A stretch of 64,000 nucleotides of DNA, taken from positions 1 through 64,000 of the forward strand of contig JBFLZR010000004.1 of the NCBI GenBank assembly GCA_040756055.1. The letters run 5' to 3'. The DNA comes from Candidatus Zixiibacteriota bacterium (GTDB taxonomy: Bacteria > Zixibacteria > MSB-5A5 > GN15 > FEB-12). This document shows positions 2,789-8,531 of this stretch, piece after piece (the stretch's first letter is position 1; each line of letters starts with the position of its first letter). Position numbers and translations under genes: made by a program. The notes beneath the pieces are model-generated. The model saw only the letters and a program-made list of their open reading frames with translations. It did not search any database and was not told where the DNA came from.

Positions 2789-3703
2789 CTATTCGTACGC
2801 CCTCTGCGGTGCGGCTGTCACGCATGCGCGTTTGTCCTTCCTGCACTTCCAAAGTACCGAGCCGGCCCATGAATTGCAGTTGTGCCAGGGCCACCACCTC
2901 CCTATTGACTTGCCGATTTCTAATTCTCTATTTACACATTCTTCATCTACGTCTTTTACCTCTACGCACTGAGCCCTCGAAGCTTCTCCGGAGTGATCGG
3001 CAATCACCACTGGGATGCCGATTGGATTGACTGGCAAAGGCCCTCCTCCAGCATGTTCCATACCCGCAGCTTTGGTGTCGGTCTTAATAAACTGGTGTTT
3101 TACACTGAATATGCCAGCAATCCAATCCACCACGCTGTTGATCTCCGTATCTCGACTGCACAGGTATACTTTCAGACCCGTCTGGTCAATCCGGTTGGCT
3201 GGGTTCGCATATACATACCTGTACAAATTCACATCCCCGGCGCCAATCCCCAGCGGGTCCGGCGTCACATACCGCCCCAACTGAGGCTCATAATACCGGT
3301 GCCAATTATAATACAAATCACTCTCCCGATCATGATACTGACCCGGGAATCGCAGCTCATTGCTCTGAACAACCTGCTCATCATACAGCGAACCAAACGG
3401 ATAATAATCACTGCTCCACACGATGTCCTTCGTGCCGTCAGTCACCGCCAGAGGCGTGCCCAGATGATCCAGATGATAATACAGAAACTTGTACACGATC
3501 GCACTCCCCGACCCCGGCTGACCCTCAAGCACAACATCGCCCGAACCGCCCCCCGATGACTCCGTCTCGGCCCTGTCGACCGGCGTCCCCGGCTGCCCCG
3601 GTTTCCCATCATCAACCACTATATTATACACCCTGGTCAGCACCCTGCCGTTTGGACTGTCAGTTGATACCATCAAGATCTCCCCGTCGTGGCTACTCCC
3701 CAA
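2789..3703 (-). pseudogene. 5'-truncated RHS core with permuted-papain-like tip
   Basis: The frame opens with a TTG at 3703 directly after an in-frame TGA at 3704-3706 and lacks the large N-terminal RHS shell, so it is a truncated or displaced piece. The RHS core runs from YYHLDHLGTPLAVTDG through FPGQYHDRES to DPLGIGAG. The tip after DQTGLK contains KHQFIKTD, a DHSG element, EECVNREL and HNCNSWA. A His before a later Asn-Cys is the order seen in circularly permuted papain-like (NlpC/LRAT-type) domains often found at RHS C-termini. It may be a cysteine peptidase or amidase toxin. A small membrane protein gene follows. Confidence 0.6.
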
Positions 3704-4874: not shown

Positions 4875-5163
4875 GGATAATTAACGATTGACGATTAAAA
4901 ATAACGAAACGAACCCAAATCGTGGTAACGGCATGAAATGTATTGGCATATGGGGACTTTATGTGCGCTGTCATTTGACAGACCCGGCTGTTTGGGTTAT
5001 CTTCAGGCAGCATAAACACAAAGGAGAGCCTGACGCATACCGTTTCACGGTGTGCGCTAATGTCCAACCTGAACAGTGCCCCGGCTGACAGCTTTTAGAG
5101 GGAAACATCCGGTTCCTAAAGCCGTAAAGCGCACCAGAGGATATCGAAATACGAGACTTTGAT

Positions 5164-7329
5164 ATGAATAATCTCGAGAGAGCCGAGCAGTTGGTACTCG
5201 CCAGAAACTTCGCCGAAGCGCTGAAGATTTTGCAGCCGATTGATTTATCGCAATTATCCGAGAAAGACCGGGCGCTATGTGATCTTTTGACATCGGAGGC
5301 CGCGCTGGGGGCGGGTAATCCCTCGCTGGTGAGGGACCTTGAGGCCGCGATAGAGTTCTACCGGTTTCATCCCGATACCTCCAAATTCGCCCGGGCCAAG
5401 TACGCGCTGGGCTGGTCGCTGACCAACCAGGTGGACTTCGTGGGAGCGCAGGAGGCCCTTCTTGAAGCTTACACCAACTTTCTCAGATACCGCGATCTCA
5501 AGGGCATAGCGAAGAGTCTTAACCGGCTAGCTTGTGTGGCACACCACATGGGTGATATCGAGGCGGCGGTCGACGGTCTGGAAAAGGCGCTTCGCCTGTA
5601 CCGATCACTGAACGACGCCGAAGGGACAGCATCGATAGCCGCCAATTTGCCCCTGCCTCTTTTGCGCACCGGACGCCTCAAGGAGGCGCTGACGAAGTGT
5701 ATCGAAAGCGCCCCGGTTCTCGAGAAGTCACCGCAGCGGATGAAGATCGTGTTTTACCTCGTATCCGCTATGCCTCACGCTCACTGGGGCAATAGTGATG
5801 ACGCATTGAAGATTATCCGACAGGTGCAGCCGCTGCTGGAGCAGTATCCGCTTGAAAGAATATCCTACTATCATTACCTGGGGTGGATACATCTGCTGGG
5901 CGACAACTACGCCAGGGCGGCGGAAATTCTGCAAAAGGGTTCCGAACTCGCGGAAGAGTTGTATCCCGGACAGCTCGTTTTCACCGCCGGAGAACGCTTA
6001 CTCGCTGAGGCCTATATATGCGCGGGAAGGTATGATGACGCCGCCGATATAGCTCAGCCACTTTTCACGACGGTGAGCAAGATGACCGAGCGTGTCGAGA
6101 TCGCCGCCTGCTACCGCATCTTCGCCCGGATAGACCTGCACAGGAAAAAACTCGAGACGGCTCGCTCCTGGTTCGAGAGAGCTATAGACCTGTTCTATGT
6201 GATTAAATCCCGCTACGAACTTGCGGTAACGCGCTATATGGCCGCTTGCTCGGACCTGTATGATCTGGATGAGAGTATCAGGTTGTTGCTGCAGGCCCGG
6301 GAATACTTTCGCTCCGAGGACGTTGAGCCATACCTCCAGAAGATAGAGAAAGAACTTGTCAGGCTCTCGCAGCCTGTCAAGAAAAGCAAGTCGACCACCC
6401 ATGCGGTGCGTATTGACGGTCACGGCAATATTGTCGATTGCCCGGACATCATCGCCGATAGCGCCATCATGCTTGATCTGATCAAATACGCTCAGAATGT
6501 AGCCGCGAGTGAACTGAGTGTTCTTCTGACCGGGGAGACCGGCACCGGCAAAGACATCCTGGCCAAATATATTCACTTCCACAGCAAACGGCCCGGGCGC
6601 TTCATCTCCGTAAACGCCGCCGCTATACCTGATACGATGGTTGAGTCGGAGCTTTTCGGCTACGCCAAAGGCGCTTTTACGAACGCCGACCAGAGTAAGC
6701 CGGGCCTTTTCGAGATGGCCGACCGGGGGACATTCTTCCTCGACGAAATAGCCGACACCTCTCCCTCGTTCCAGGCCAAACTTCTGGAAGTAATCGAAAC
6801 GCGGAGTGTGCGAAGACTGGGCGAAACTCTCCCCCGGCCGGTGGATTTCAGGCTCATTGCCGCCACCAACCAGGACTTATCGTCTCGAATTGAAAACCGC
6901 GAGTTTCGCGAGGACCTCTTCCATCGCTTAAACCAGCTTCAATTACATCTGCCTCCCCTGAGAGAAAGAACACTGGACCTTCTCGCCCTCATCAGGTACT
7001 TCATGCGCACCTCGGGGTTGATTATTGAGGAGGGCGAAGCATCAAAGCGGCTTGAGGAATTATCCGAAGTGCTCGCCGCGCATGACTGGCCGGGTAACGT
7101 TCGTCAGCTCCGGGCTGAAATCAACCGGCTGGTACTGGAATCCGGACGCGATATCAGGCAGATGCTCACCCTGGCACGCAAGGCGGCCCGGGGCAGAAAT
7201 GAATATAACGAACTTCTGCGGGCACTCGATTTCGCCAACGGCAATCAGAGTCTGGCCGCGAGAAGTCTCGGAATCCCCGAGAGTACTCTTCGTTATCGTC
7301 TAAAAAAATACCGCAACAGAACCCCCTGA
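5164..7329 (+). CDS. TPR-containing sigma-54-dependent transcription activator
   Basis: A 721-residue cytosolic regulator. Residues 1 to about 400 are helical TPR-like repeats, replacing the receiver or GAF domain of classical NtrC relatives and probably sensing a protein partner. An AAA+ sigma-54-interaction domain follows, with Walker A GETGTGKD at 457-464 and the sigma-54 contact loop as GAFTNA (503-508; consensus GAFTGA, here with Asn). Then come FFLDEIAD (Walker B) and a C-terminal Fis-type helix-turn-helix (about 681-721, SLAARSLGIPESTLRYRLKK). The ATG at 5164 has no strong ribosome site. The nearest sigma-54 promoter lies 250 nt downstream of its stop and drives a putative small RNA, a likely target. 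Confidence 0.9.
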   Translation: MNNLERAEQLVLARNFAEALKILQPIDLSQLSEKDRALCDLLTSEAALGAGNPSLVRDLEAAIEFYRFHPDTSKFARAKYALGWSLTNQVDFVGAQEALLEAYTNFLRYRDLKGIAKSLNRLACVAHHMGDIEAAVDGLEKALRLYRSLNDAEGTASIAANLPLPLLRTGRLKEALTKCIESAPVLEKSPQRMKIVFYLVSAMPHAHWGNSDDALKIIRQVQPLLEQYPLERISYYHYLGWIHLLGDNYARAAEILQKGSELAEELYPGQLVFTAGERLLAEAYICAGRYDDAADIAQPLFTTVSKMTERVEIAACYRIFARIDLHRKKLETARSWFERAIDLFYVIKSRYELAVTRYMAACSDLYDLDESIRLLLQAREYFRSEDVEPYLQKIEKELVRLSQPVKKSKSTTHAVRIDGHGNIVDCPDIIADSAIMLDLIKYAQNVAASELSVLLTGETGTGKDILAKYIHFHSKRPGRFISVNAAAIPDTMVESELFGYAKGAFTNADQSKPGLFEMADRGTFFLDEIADTSPSFQAKLLEVIETRSVRRLGETLPRPVDFRLIAATNQDLSSRIENREFREDLFHRLNQLQLHLPPLRERTLDLLALIRYFMRTSGLIIEEGEASKRLEELSEVLAAHDWPGNVRQLRAEINRLVLESGRDIRQMLTLARKAARGRNEYNELLRALDFANGNQSLAARSLGIPESTLRYRLKKYRNRTP

Positions 7330-7578
7330 GTCGCTGGTTTCCCGGTCTCAAACCGACATCAGTGATTCAACAGTTGCGAGTTTGCGAATTATGTTCGCGT
7401 TTTATACGAAAAACTTCATTGATTGACAATAACTTAAGCGCCACAACTCAAAATTCGCAGAAATTACCCCTGAATTCGCCTTTTAGAGGTATTTTTGACA
7501 GACTGCAAACTTTGAAAATCTTCAGCTACGCCGCTGTAAAGCAACACGATACGATTCGCAACATCTGAATGACATATA
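7330..7578. other. Intergenic region upstream of the sigma-54 promoter
   Basis: No gene is supported. It is AT-rich with recurring TTCGC/GCGAA words: an inverted repeat GCGAA-N5-TTCGC at 7384-7398 and direct AATTCGC words near 7450 and 7473. These lie about 110-200 nt upstream of the -24/-12 element, the usual range for activator binding sites. The link to the adjacent Fis-type activator is inference. Confidence 0.35.
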
Positions 7579-7594
7579 TGGCACAATTTTTGTG
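7579..7594 (+). promoter_or_regulatory. Sigma-54 (-24/-12) promoter
   Basis: TGGCAC, five bases, then TTGTG matches the sigma-54 consensus TGGCAC-N5-TTGCA except for one base in the -12 block. Expected transcription start is about 7604. It lies immediately downstream of a sigma-54 activator gene and upstream of a terminator-bounded RNA. Confidence 0.65.
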
Positions 7595-7603
7595 TGCATT
7601 AAT

Positions 7604-7709
7604 GTCGTTGAACGGCGGAACCGAGAAGGAACGGTGACTGCGGTACCGGGTTCGACCAGAATTGATACCGTTAGGGCGTGTAAAGGTGACTGGTCGACCC
7701 GGTTTTTTT
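7604..7709 (+). ncRNA. Putative sigma-54-controlled small RNA, ~105 nt
   Basis: A short transcript is bounded by the -24/-12 promoter and by a strong intrinsic terminator. The 5' part can form an ACCG/CGGT hairpin presenting AGAAGGAA in its loop (about 7619-7635), which could pair with anti-Shine-Dalgarno-like sequence or bind a GGA-recognising protein. No convincing short reading frame fits before the terminator. A GTG at 7634 follows AGAAGGA but with very tight spacing, and its frame runs through the terminator. The family is not recognised. Confidence 0.55.
7645..7709 (+). terminator. Intrinsic terminator of the putative small RNA
   Basis: ACCGGGTTCGACCAG (7645-7659) pairs with CTGGTCGACCCGGT (7690-7703) with one bulged base, followed directly by seven T. 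The 30-nt loop is longer than usual but the stem is GC-rich. Confidence 0.75.
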
Positions 7710-7744
7710 ATTGTCCACGAAGCGGTTTCGCAAACCTGTCGCTG

Positions 7745-7772
7745 TTGACAATCATCGATTTATACCTATCTT
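7745..7772 (+). promoter_or_regulatory. Promoter, near-leaderless
   Basis: TTGACA (7745-7750), a 16-nt spacer and TATCTT (7767-7772), followed by TTG. The ATG of the next gene is at 7779, so transcription would start on or beside the start codon. There is no ribosome site. TATCTTTG also matches the Bacteroidetes-type TAnnTTTG -7 box. Confidence 0.6.
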
Positions 7773-7778
7773 TGCGCC

Positions 7779-8531
7779 ATGACTCGCAGGGATGAATTTG
7801 TCTCAATTATCAAGTCGGAATTCCCCGATGACCGTCTGACTTACCAGAAGTCGGTTCCGACTTTCCATCCGCAATCGGCCGAAGATGCCGCCGCCCTGTT
7901 TCGTCTGGCCAACAAACACCACCAGAAGTTGTTTATCACCGGTTTCGGCAACAACATCGACCCACAGGGAGAACCGTTTACCGACATGGTATCGGTTCGA
8001 ACGGATCGGCTTAACCGGTTGATTGAGGTGAACGCCGATGATTTTTATGTGACAGTCGGCTCAGGCTTTCCGCTGAAAGAGATCAATCTGGATCTGGAAG
8101 AATTCCAACTCTGGCTGCCGCATTCTTCGCTTCCTTATGTCGGATCGGTTGGCGGCTCGATAGCGGCCGGACTGTGCGCCGCACTCGACAAGCATGATCT
8201 TCCGTTAAAGAAGTACTTTATCAAGGCGGAAATTGTCACCCCGGAAGGGGATATCATCAAGCCGGGTTCGGCGTGTTTTAAGTCGGTATCGGGGTACGAT
8301 ATAGTGAAGATATTCTTCGGAAGCTGGGGCCTTCTGGGGCTTATTATCAATGCCACGTTCCGGGTCATGCCGAAGTCGGCCACGGGTGAATTCTCCTCGA
8401 TGAAGCTCAAGGCTATTGATCGGCGGCCGCTGCTCGATGTTTTGGATGATGACAATCTCGACCCCGATGCCGTTTATTCGCGCAAGGTCAAGACAAAGCT
8501 CGATCCAAACGGCGTGCTTCCCTTGGTCTGA
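7779..8531 (+). CDS. Short FAD-binding (PCMH/GlcD-type) oxidoreductase
   Basis: A 250-residue protein consisting of little more than the FAD-binding PCMH domain of the GlcD/vanillyl-alcohol-oxidase superfamily. It has a SAEDAAALFRLANKH region, the dinucleotide loop ITGFGNNI, LPYVGSVGGSIAAG around residues 120-133, and SGYDIVKIFFGSWGLLGLI. Full GlcD-type oxidases exceed 450 residues and carry a C-terminal substrate domain that is absent here, so this may be a GlcE-like subunit. It ends cleanly with DPNGVLPLV. Substrate unknown. The start appears leaderless. No partner subunit is adjacent. Confidence 0.8.
   Translation: MTRRDEFVSIIKSEFPDDRLTYQKSVPTFHPQSAEDAAALFRLANKHHQKLFITGFGNNIDPQGEPFTDMVSVRTDRLNRLIEVNADDFYVTVGSGFPLKEINLDLEEFQLWLPHSSLPYVGSVGGSIAAGLCAALDKHDLPLKKYFIKAEIVTPEGDIIKPGSACFKSVSGYDIVKIFFGSWGLLGLIINATFRVMPKSATGEFSSMKLKAIDRRPLLDVLDDDNLDPDAVYSRKVKTKLDPNGVLPLV

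Follow-up and report, generated by a model that had tools for sequence, protein, structure and literature searches.

Comparison of the window, i.e., the whole 64,000-nt stretch of Candidatus Zixiibacteriota DNA that was analysed, with related genomes points to a probable dedicated regulator-target pair, in which a TPR-containing sigma-54 activator is followed by the gene for an adjacent non-coding RNA that may act in trans. This comparison demonstrates, at the level of sequence, the arrangement of the locus, the position of the promoter, the conservation of a long hairpin and the absence of a conserved protein. The activator gene (positions 5164–7329, plus strand) encodes a protein of 721 aa with an N-terminal TPR region, a sigma-54 interaction AAA+ domain, an AAA lid and a Fis-type HTH (Pfam: PF00158, 2e-60; TPR_12, 7.6e-13; HTH_8, 1.2e-9; AAA_lid_14). 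Orthologues with 39–41% identity across the TPR half were found in three genomes of the same genus, designated G001, G002 and G003, while G000 denotes the genome of the window, which lies on its contig C4.

The original prediction had placed a -24/-12 element (TGGCAC-N5-TTGTG) and a promoter-RNA block downstream of a sigma-54 activator gene, and both were borne out. The promoter TGGCACAATTTTTGTG is located at positions 7579–7594 (plus strand), 250 nt past the stop codon of the activator gene, with a predicted transcription start at approximately 7605, and all three same-genus orthologues carry a promoter at the equivalent place (TGGCACGCCATTTGAT, CGGCACAGGTTTTGAT and CGGCACGAGGCTTGTT). In TGGCACAATTTTTGTG, the spacing between the GG and the -12 G is correct, and a T stands in place of the usual -12 C; such a deviation is nothing unusual within the family, since several relatives have TTGT or TTGA at -12. 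The match alone is unremarkable, because 18 out of 280 450-nt stretches of the window contain a site with a score of at least 20. What is remarkable is that relatives have such a site at the equivalent position, and it is the homologous loci that settle whether it exceeds chance. A profile search with the TPR half as query gave 45 matches in 33 of the 132 genomes of the class, and 34 homologous loci had enough downstream DNA to be considered (an earlier, first set comprised 22). With a cut-off score of at least 20 and a maximal distance of 450 nt from the activator stop, a -24/-12 site was present downstream of the activator in 28 of these 34 loci, compared to 2.6 expected from dinucleotide shuffles and to 2/34 when the complementary strand of these loci was scanned. 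Its distance from the stop codon was mostly 120–270 nt, and most often 215–270 nt. Furthermore, RpoN is encoded in all nine genomes tested, that of the window included.

Between the activator gene and the promoter lies a putative upstream activating site, TGCGAGTTTGCGAA (7375–7388, plus strand), approximately 190 bp 5' of the promoter, together with related half-sites in inverted repeats at 7383–7399, 7449–7459 and 7556–7573. The corresponding 14-bp pattern TGCGARTTTGCGAA has a single perfect match in the whole genome of G000 (C4:7375–7388), and likewise in G001 and G003, each time just behind the activator gene; in G002, the candidate site has diverged. Elsewhere, near-matches occurred at much the same frequency as those to a reversed control. 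As the pattern was derived from these very loci, its absence elsewhere is the informative part, and the genome-unique putative site suggests a dedicated activator with one target. In homologous loci, palindromes of the TNCGNA type are found at the equivalent place, with letters that vary from locus to locus.

The predicted small RNA comprises about 106 nt (7605–7711, plus strand), its start being derived from the promoter and its end from the T-run. The 108 nt folded had a free energy of -43.5 kcal/mol (z -3.66), a value that none of 200 shuffled sequences reached. As had been proposed, a unit of about 105 nt ends in this species in a strong hairpin (7643–7705) and a run of seven T (7703–7709). 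The loop of this long hairpin, of about 30 nt, carries UUAGGGCG (7671–7678), and an AGGGY motif is present in the loop in all four species of the genus. The RNA is single copy in the genome. Neither the window RNA nor any of 20 related loci had a match to Rfam 15 above the gathering score, and the matches below threshold were at chance level; a blastn search with the RNA against 97 relatives likewise returned short chance-level matches only, and the orthologous RNAs were reached via the activator.

In G001, G002 and G003, the order of activator gene, -24/-12 site, long hairpin and a gene for an FAD-binding protein is identical to that in the window. The orthologous RNAs also fold unusually well (z -4.71, -4.53 and -3.93), and no unusual folding was seen for the 130 nt that precede the promoter at each of the four loci (z -1.2 to 1.9). 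Since MAFFT misaligned the four RNAs, conservation was assessed with a two-sequence covariance model with held-out tests and with a hand-made pair table. The latter, a hand alignment on the shared CCGGG/CCCGG core that favours pairing and is to be read with the held-out test, gave 51 of 52 standard pair cells and two-sided changes in 7 of 13 pairs. The model, R1, was derived from G000 and G001 alone and run on the loci without filters, and it gave the held-out hairpins of G002 and G003 the top rank within their respective loci (E 0.11 and 0.18), on the correct strand and in the correct place. Each of these matches is weak alone; their agreement in rank, strand and place is not. Matches of R1 in two more distant loci, L120 and L121 (E approximately 0.02), were not counted, as they rest on a GC-rich stem and score on the opposite strand too. 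Because the block recurs with compensating base changes in three sister species, the RNA looks real, within a genus sample of four species.

The terminator held for the window species and failed as a general feature, given that the run of T is lacking in G001–G003. The transcripts of these three species must therefore run further, and in G001 a terminator-like hairpin is found only just before the FAD gene. A similarly divided outcome was obtained for the hairpin loop thought to present GGA. An unpaired purine motif of the GGAA type, located 5' of the long hairpin, is common to the four species, but the small hairpin ACCG-AGAAGGAA-CGGT (7620–7635, plus strand) was not conserved in the folds and sequences of G000–G003.

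With regard to coding potential, a search for an ORF conserved through the terminator in the four species found none, the best similarity being E 0.48 over 11 aa, in agreement with the earlier statement that no protein fits. A conserved small protein as the product was thus ruled out, as the ORFs of the four RNAs share nothing.

The main rival to a trans-acting RNA is a leader relic, because approximately 18 of 31 related units appear to encode a secreted protein. According to this explanation, the hairpin is a 5' leader element, relic or control, of an mRNA that is transcribed under sigma-54 and encodes a small Cys-rich peptide for secretion; here, the peptide would have been lost, and the leader, now ended by a terminator, would have little or no function in trans. 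In its favour, a crude heuristic placed a Shine-Dalgarno sequence and a signal-peptide ORF after the promoter in about 18 of the 31 promoter-bearing related loci, with lipoproteins and small Cys-containing secreted peptides as the products. This includes a paralogous TPR activator on contig C10 of the window genome (L052), which is accompanied by its own sigma-54 promoter, a leader that likewise holds a long hairpin, and a small secreted peptide that contains Cys. The genus of the window has no intact secreted-peptide ORF, and related CWYL[KR]CC coding remnants, belonging to a decaying Cys-rich small ORF, follow the hairpin in G001 and G002. In the G001 locus (L059), the ORF CYIGQG...CWYLKCC, related to that of G002, is broken by an in-frame TAA. 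Against this explanation, all four species have kept the hairpin, with base changes that compensate one another, and the peptide is absent in two of them and decaying in the other two; conservation of the hairpin where the peptide has gone suggests selection on the RNA itself. We regard the leader relic as possible, albeit on the doubtful side.

Taken together, the reading of the locus as an activator-sRNA pair stood as far as the promoter, the structured non-coding RNA and the pairing with the upstream activator are concerned, on the basis of the orthologues and the genome-unique putative site, and it did not stand as a rule for the family: a stand-alone sRNA is likely here, yet not the rule among relatives. 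On a speculative note, Zixibacteria may harbour a family of modules in which a TPR sigma-54 activator, with operator and promoter behind its gene, drives a structured RNA; in many cases, this RNA would continue into the coding sequence of a lipoprotein or small secreted peptide, and in others it would stand alone. The TPR region could then sense the secreted product of its own module, as peptide-sensing TPR regulators do, and the RNA would be the conserved output. The secreted products agree with the published view that sigma-54 controls the bacterial exterior (PMC3162934).

Other structured transcripts were observed among the relatives. In three genera of taxonomic family f4, an RNA of about 310 nt lies behind the homologous activator and shows conserved CCTCCATG and AAGGTGGTTGAAG and large-loop hairpins (L112:1580–1902, minus strand; L113:1100–1440, plus strand; L118:1540–1908, minus strand). 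Sigma-54 transcripts of other families (L120 and L121, and also L053, L063 and L115) contain pyrimidine runs such as CCTCCTTCCTCTCTT, which resemble the 16S anti-Shine-Dalgarno and are situated in or beside large hairpin loops.

Further side observations concern the DNA around the activator gene. Its 5' leader and first ~35 codons (window positions 4974–5269) are duplicated on contig C7 of the same genome (L057:1149–1444, opposite strand; 97% identity over 296 nt), apparently without the remaining activator gene. Upstream of the activator, a 33-nt unit of the AACGAAACGAACCC type occurs four times, and there are long direct repeats (4167–4405/4508–4746 and 4446–4546/4835–4935, 92% and 91%). Two partly duplicated ORFs with differing C-terminal ends (918–1694 and 2789–3703, minus strand) are, judged by eye only, RHS-repeat-core-like (DHLGTPLAVTDG...YYPFG...).

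It is very unlikely that the hairpin and its seven T form an ordinary terminator of the activator mRNA beside an accidental -24/-12 match. Hairpins with a T-run are common after genes, and sites of equal quality are found in the 18/280 window stretches mentioned above, but this explanation requires a 3' UTR of 380 nt, the promoter recurs on the correct strand in 28/34 loci, and the orthologous hairpins are devoid of the T-run. Finally, a role as leader or attenuator for the FAD gene downstream (7779–8531, plus strand; 250 aa, PF01565), as might be imagined from a hairpin-terminator 70 nt 5' of a gene that is syntenic throughout the genus, is scarcely credible and was rejected, since in all four species a conserved sigma-70-type promoter of its own (TTGACA-N16-18-TATCTT; TTGACA ... 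TATCTT at 7745–7772, plus strand, in the window) directly precedes the start of the FAD gene, which thus lies outside the RNA unit, and the distance from RNA to gene varies from ~70 to ~500 nt.

For the dedicated pair, we propose the following sequence of events. The TPR region would sense a signal to which the activator responds; the activator would bind at TGCGARTTTGCGAA, immediately downstream of the gene that encodes it, and would then switch on the adjacent -24/-12 promoter in a sigma-54-dependent manner. The predicted transcript would be the ~106-nt non-coding RNA, composed of a purine-rich GGAA segment and the long hairpin, whose 30-nt loop bears AGGGY. In this species, the T-run at the hairpin would end transcription and release a stand-alone RNA, which may act in trans via the loop or the GGAA segment, through pairing with mRNAs or binding of a protein, and independently of Hfq.

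As for protein partners, Hfq (PF17209) was found in none of nine genomes, with matches in 5 of 14 control genomes, and an Hfq-dependent base-pairing sRNA was consequently set aside. CsrA is encoded in all nine genomes tested, so that these bacteria do at least have a GGA-binding protein at their disposal. GGA is not enriched, as the four RNAs contain 2, 4, 1 and 2 GGA motifs, numbers at or below those of shuffled sequences. A CsrA-sequestering sponge of the CsrB/RsmZ kind was rejected for want of GGA enrichment and of a conserved GGAA hairpin. The likeness to such RNAs consists of the GGAA motif in 4/4 orthologues and the presence of CsrA; in contrast to that type, three of the four RNAs have one or two GGA, unenriched and outside the conserved hairpin loops.

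Pairs of a sigma-54 activator and an sRNA are known from a few Proteobacteria, and most of them use Hfq. A literature search returned nothing on TPR sigma-54 activators with small RNAs, nor on Zixibacteria with sigma-54. If true, the proposal would extend such pairs to a phylum that is largely uncultured and in which no Hfq was detected, with a TPR sensor replacing the response regulator and with an RNA outside Rfam. In addition, the many homologous modules would provide a comparative set for the interconversion of structured leaders and stand-alone RNAs.

Among known systems, luxO-qrr1 of Vibrio has a sigma-54 activator gene that adjoins the sigma-54-dependent sRNA gene it activates (PMC8043402). 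This adjacency is shared with the window locus; however, qrr1 is divergent from and upstream of luxO, and LuxO, unlike the TPR protein of the window, is a response regulator that is phosphorylated. Qrr RNAs work with Hfq, whereas no Hfq was found in the genome of the window, and no sequence relation between the two systems was seen. In Enterobacteria, the sigma-54-dependent sRNA GlmY, a decoy for RapZ (PMC7073468), is encoded at the same locus as the activator gene (glmY-qseEGF; PMC6075780, PMC8745638), a likeness to the window locus that is limited by the position of glmY, which precedes the operon, and by the different type of activator. In the cbrB-crcZ pair of Pseudomonas and Azotobacter, the RpoN-dependent sRNA gene lies directly behind the activator gene, and the activator binds upstream sites (PMC6292655). 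The window locus has the same order of genes and would involve similar upstream binding, but CrcZ antagonises Hfq-Crc and CbrB is a response regulator, whereas the window RNA is one long hairpin of ~106 nt in a genome in which no Hfq was found. In line with luxO-qrr1 and cbrB-crcZ, the locus described here combines a promoter beside an enhancer-binding-protein gene, an arrangement kept in relatives, with a conserved non-coding product.
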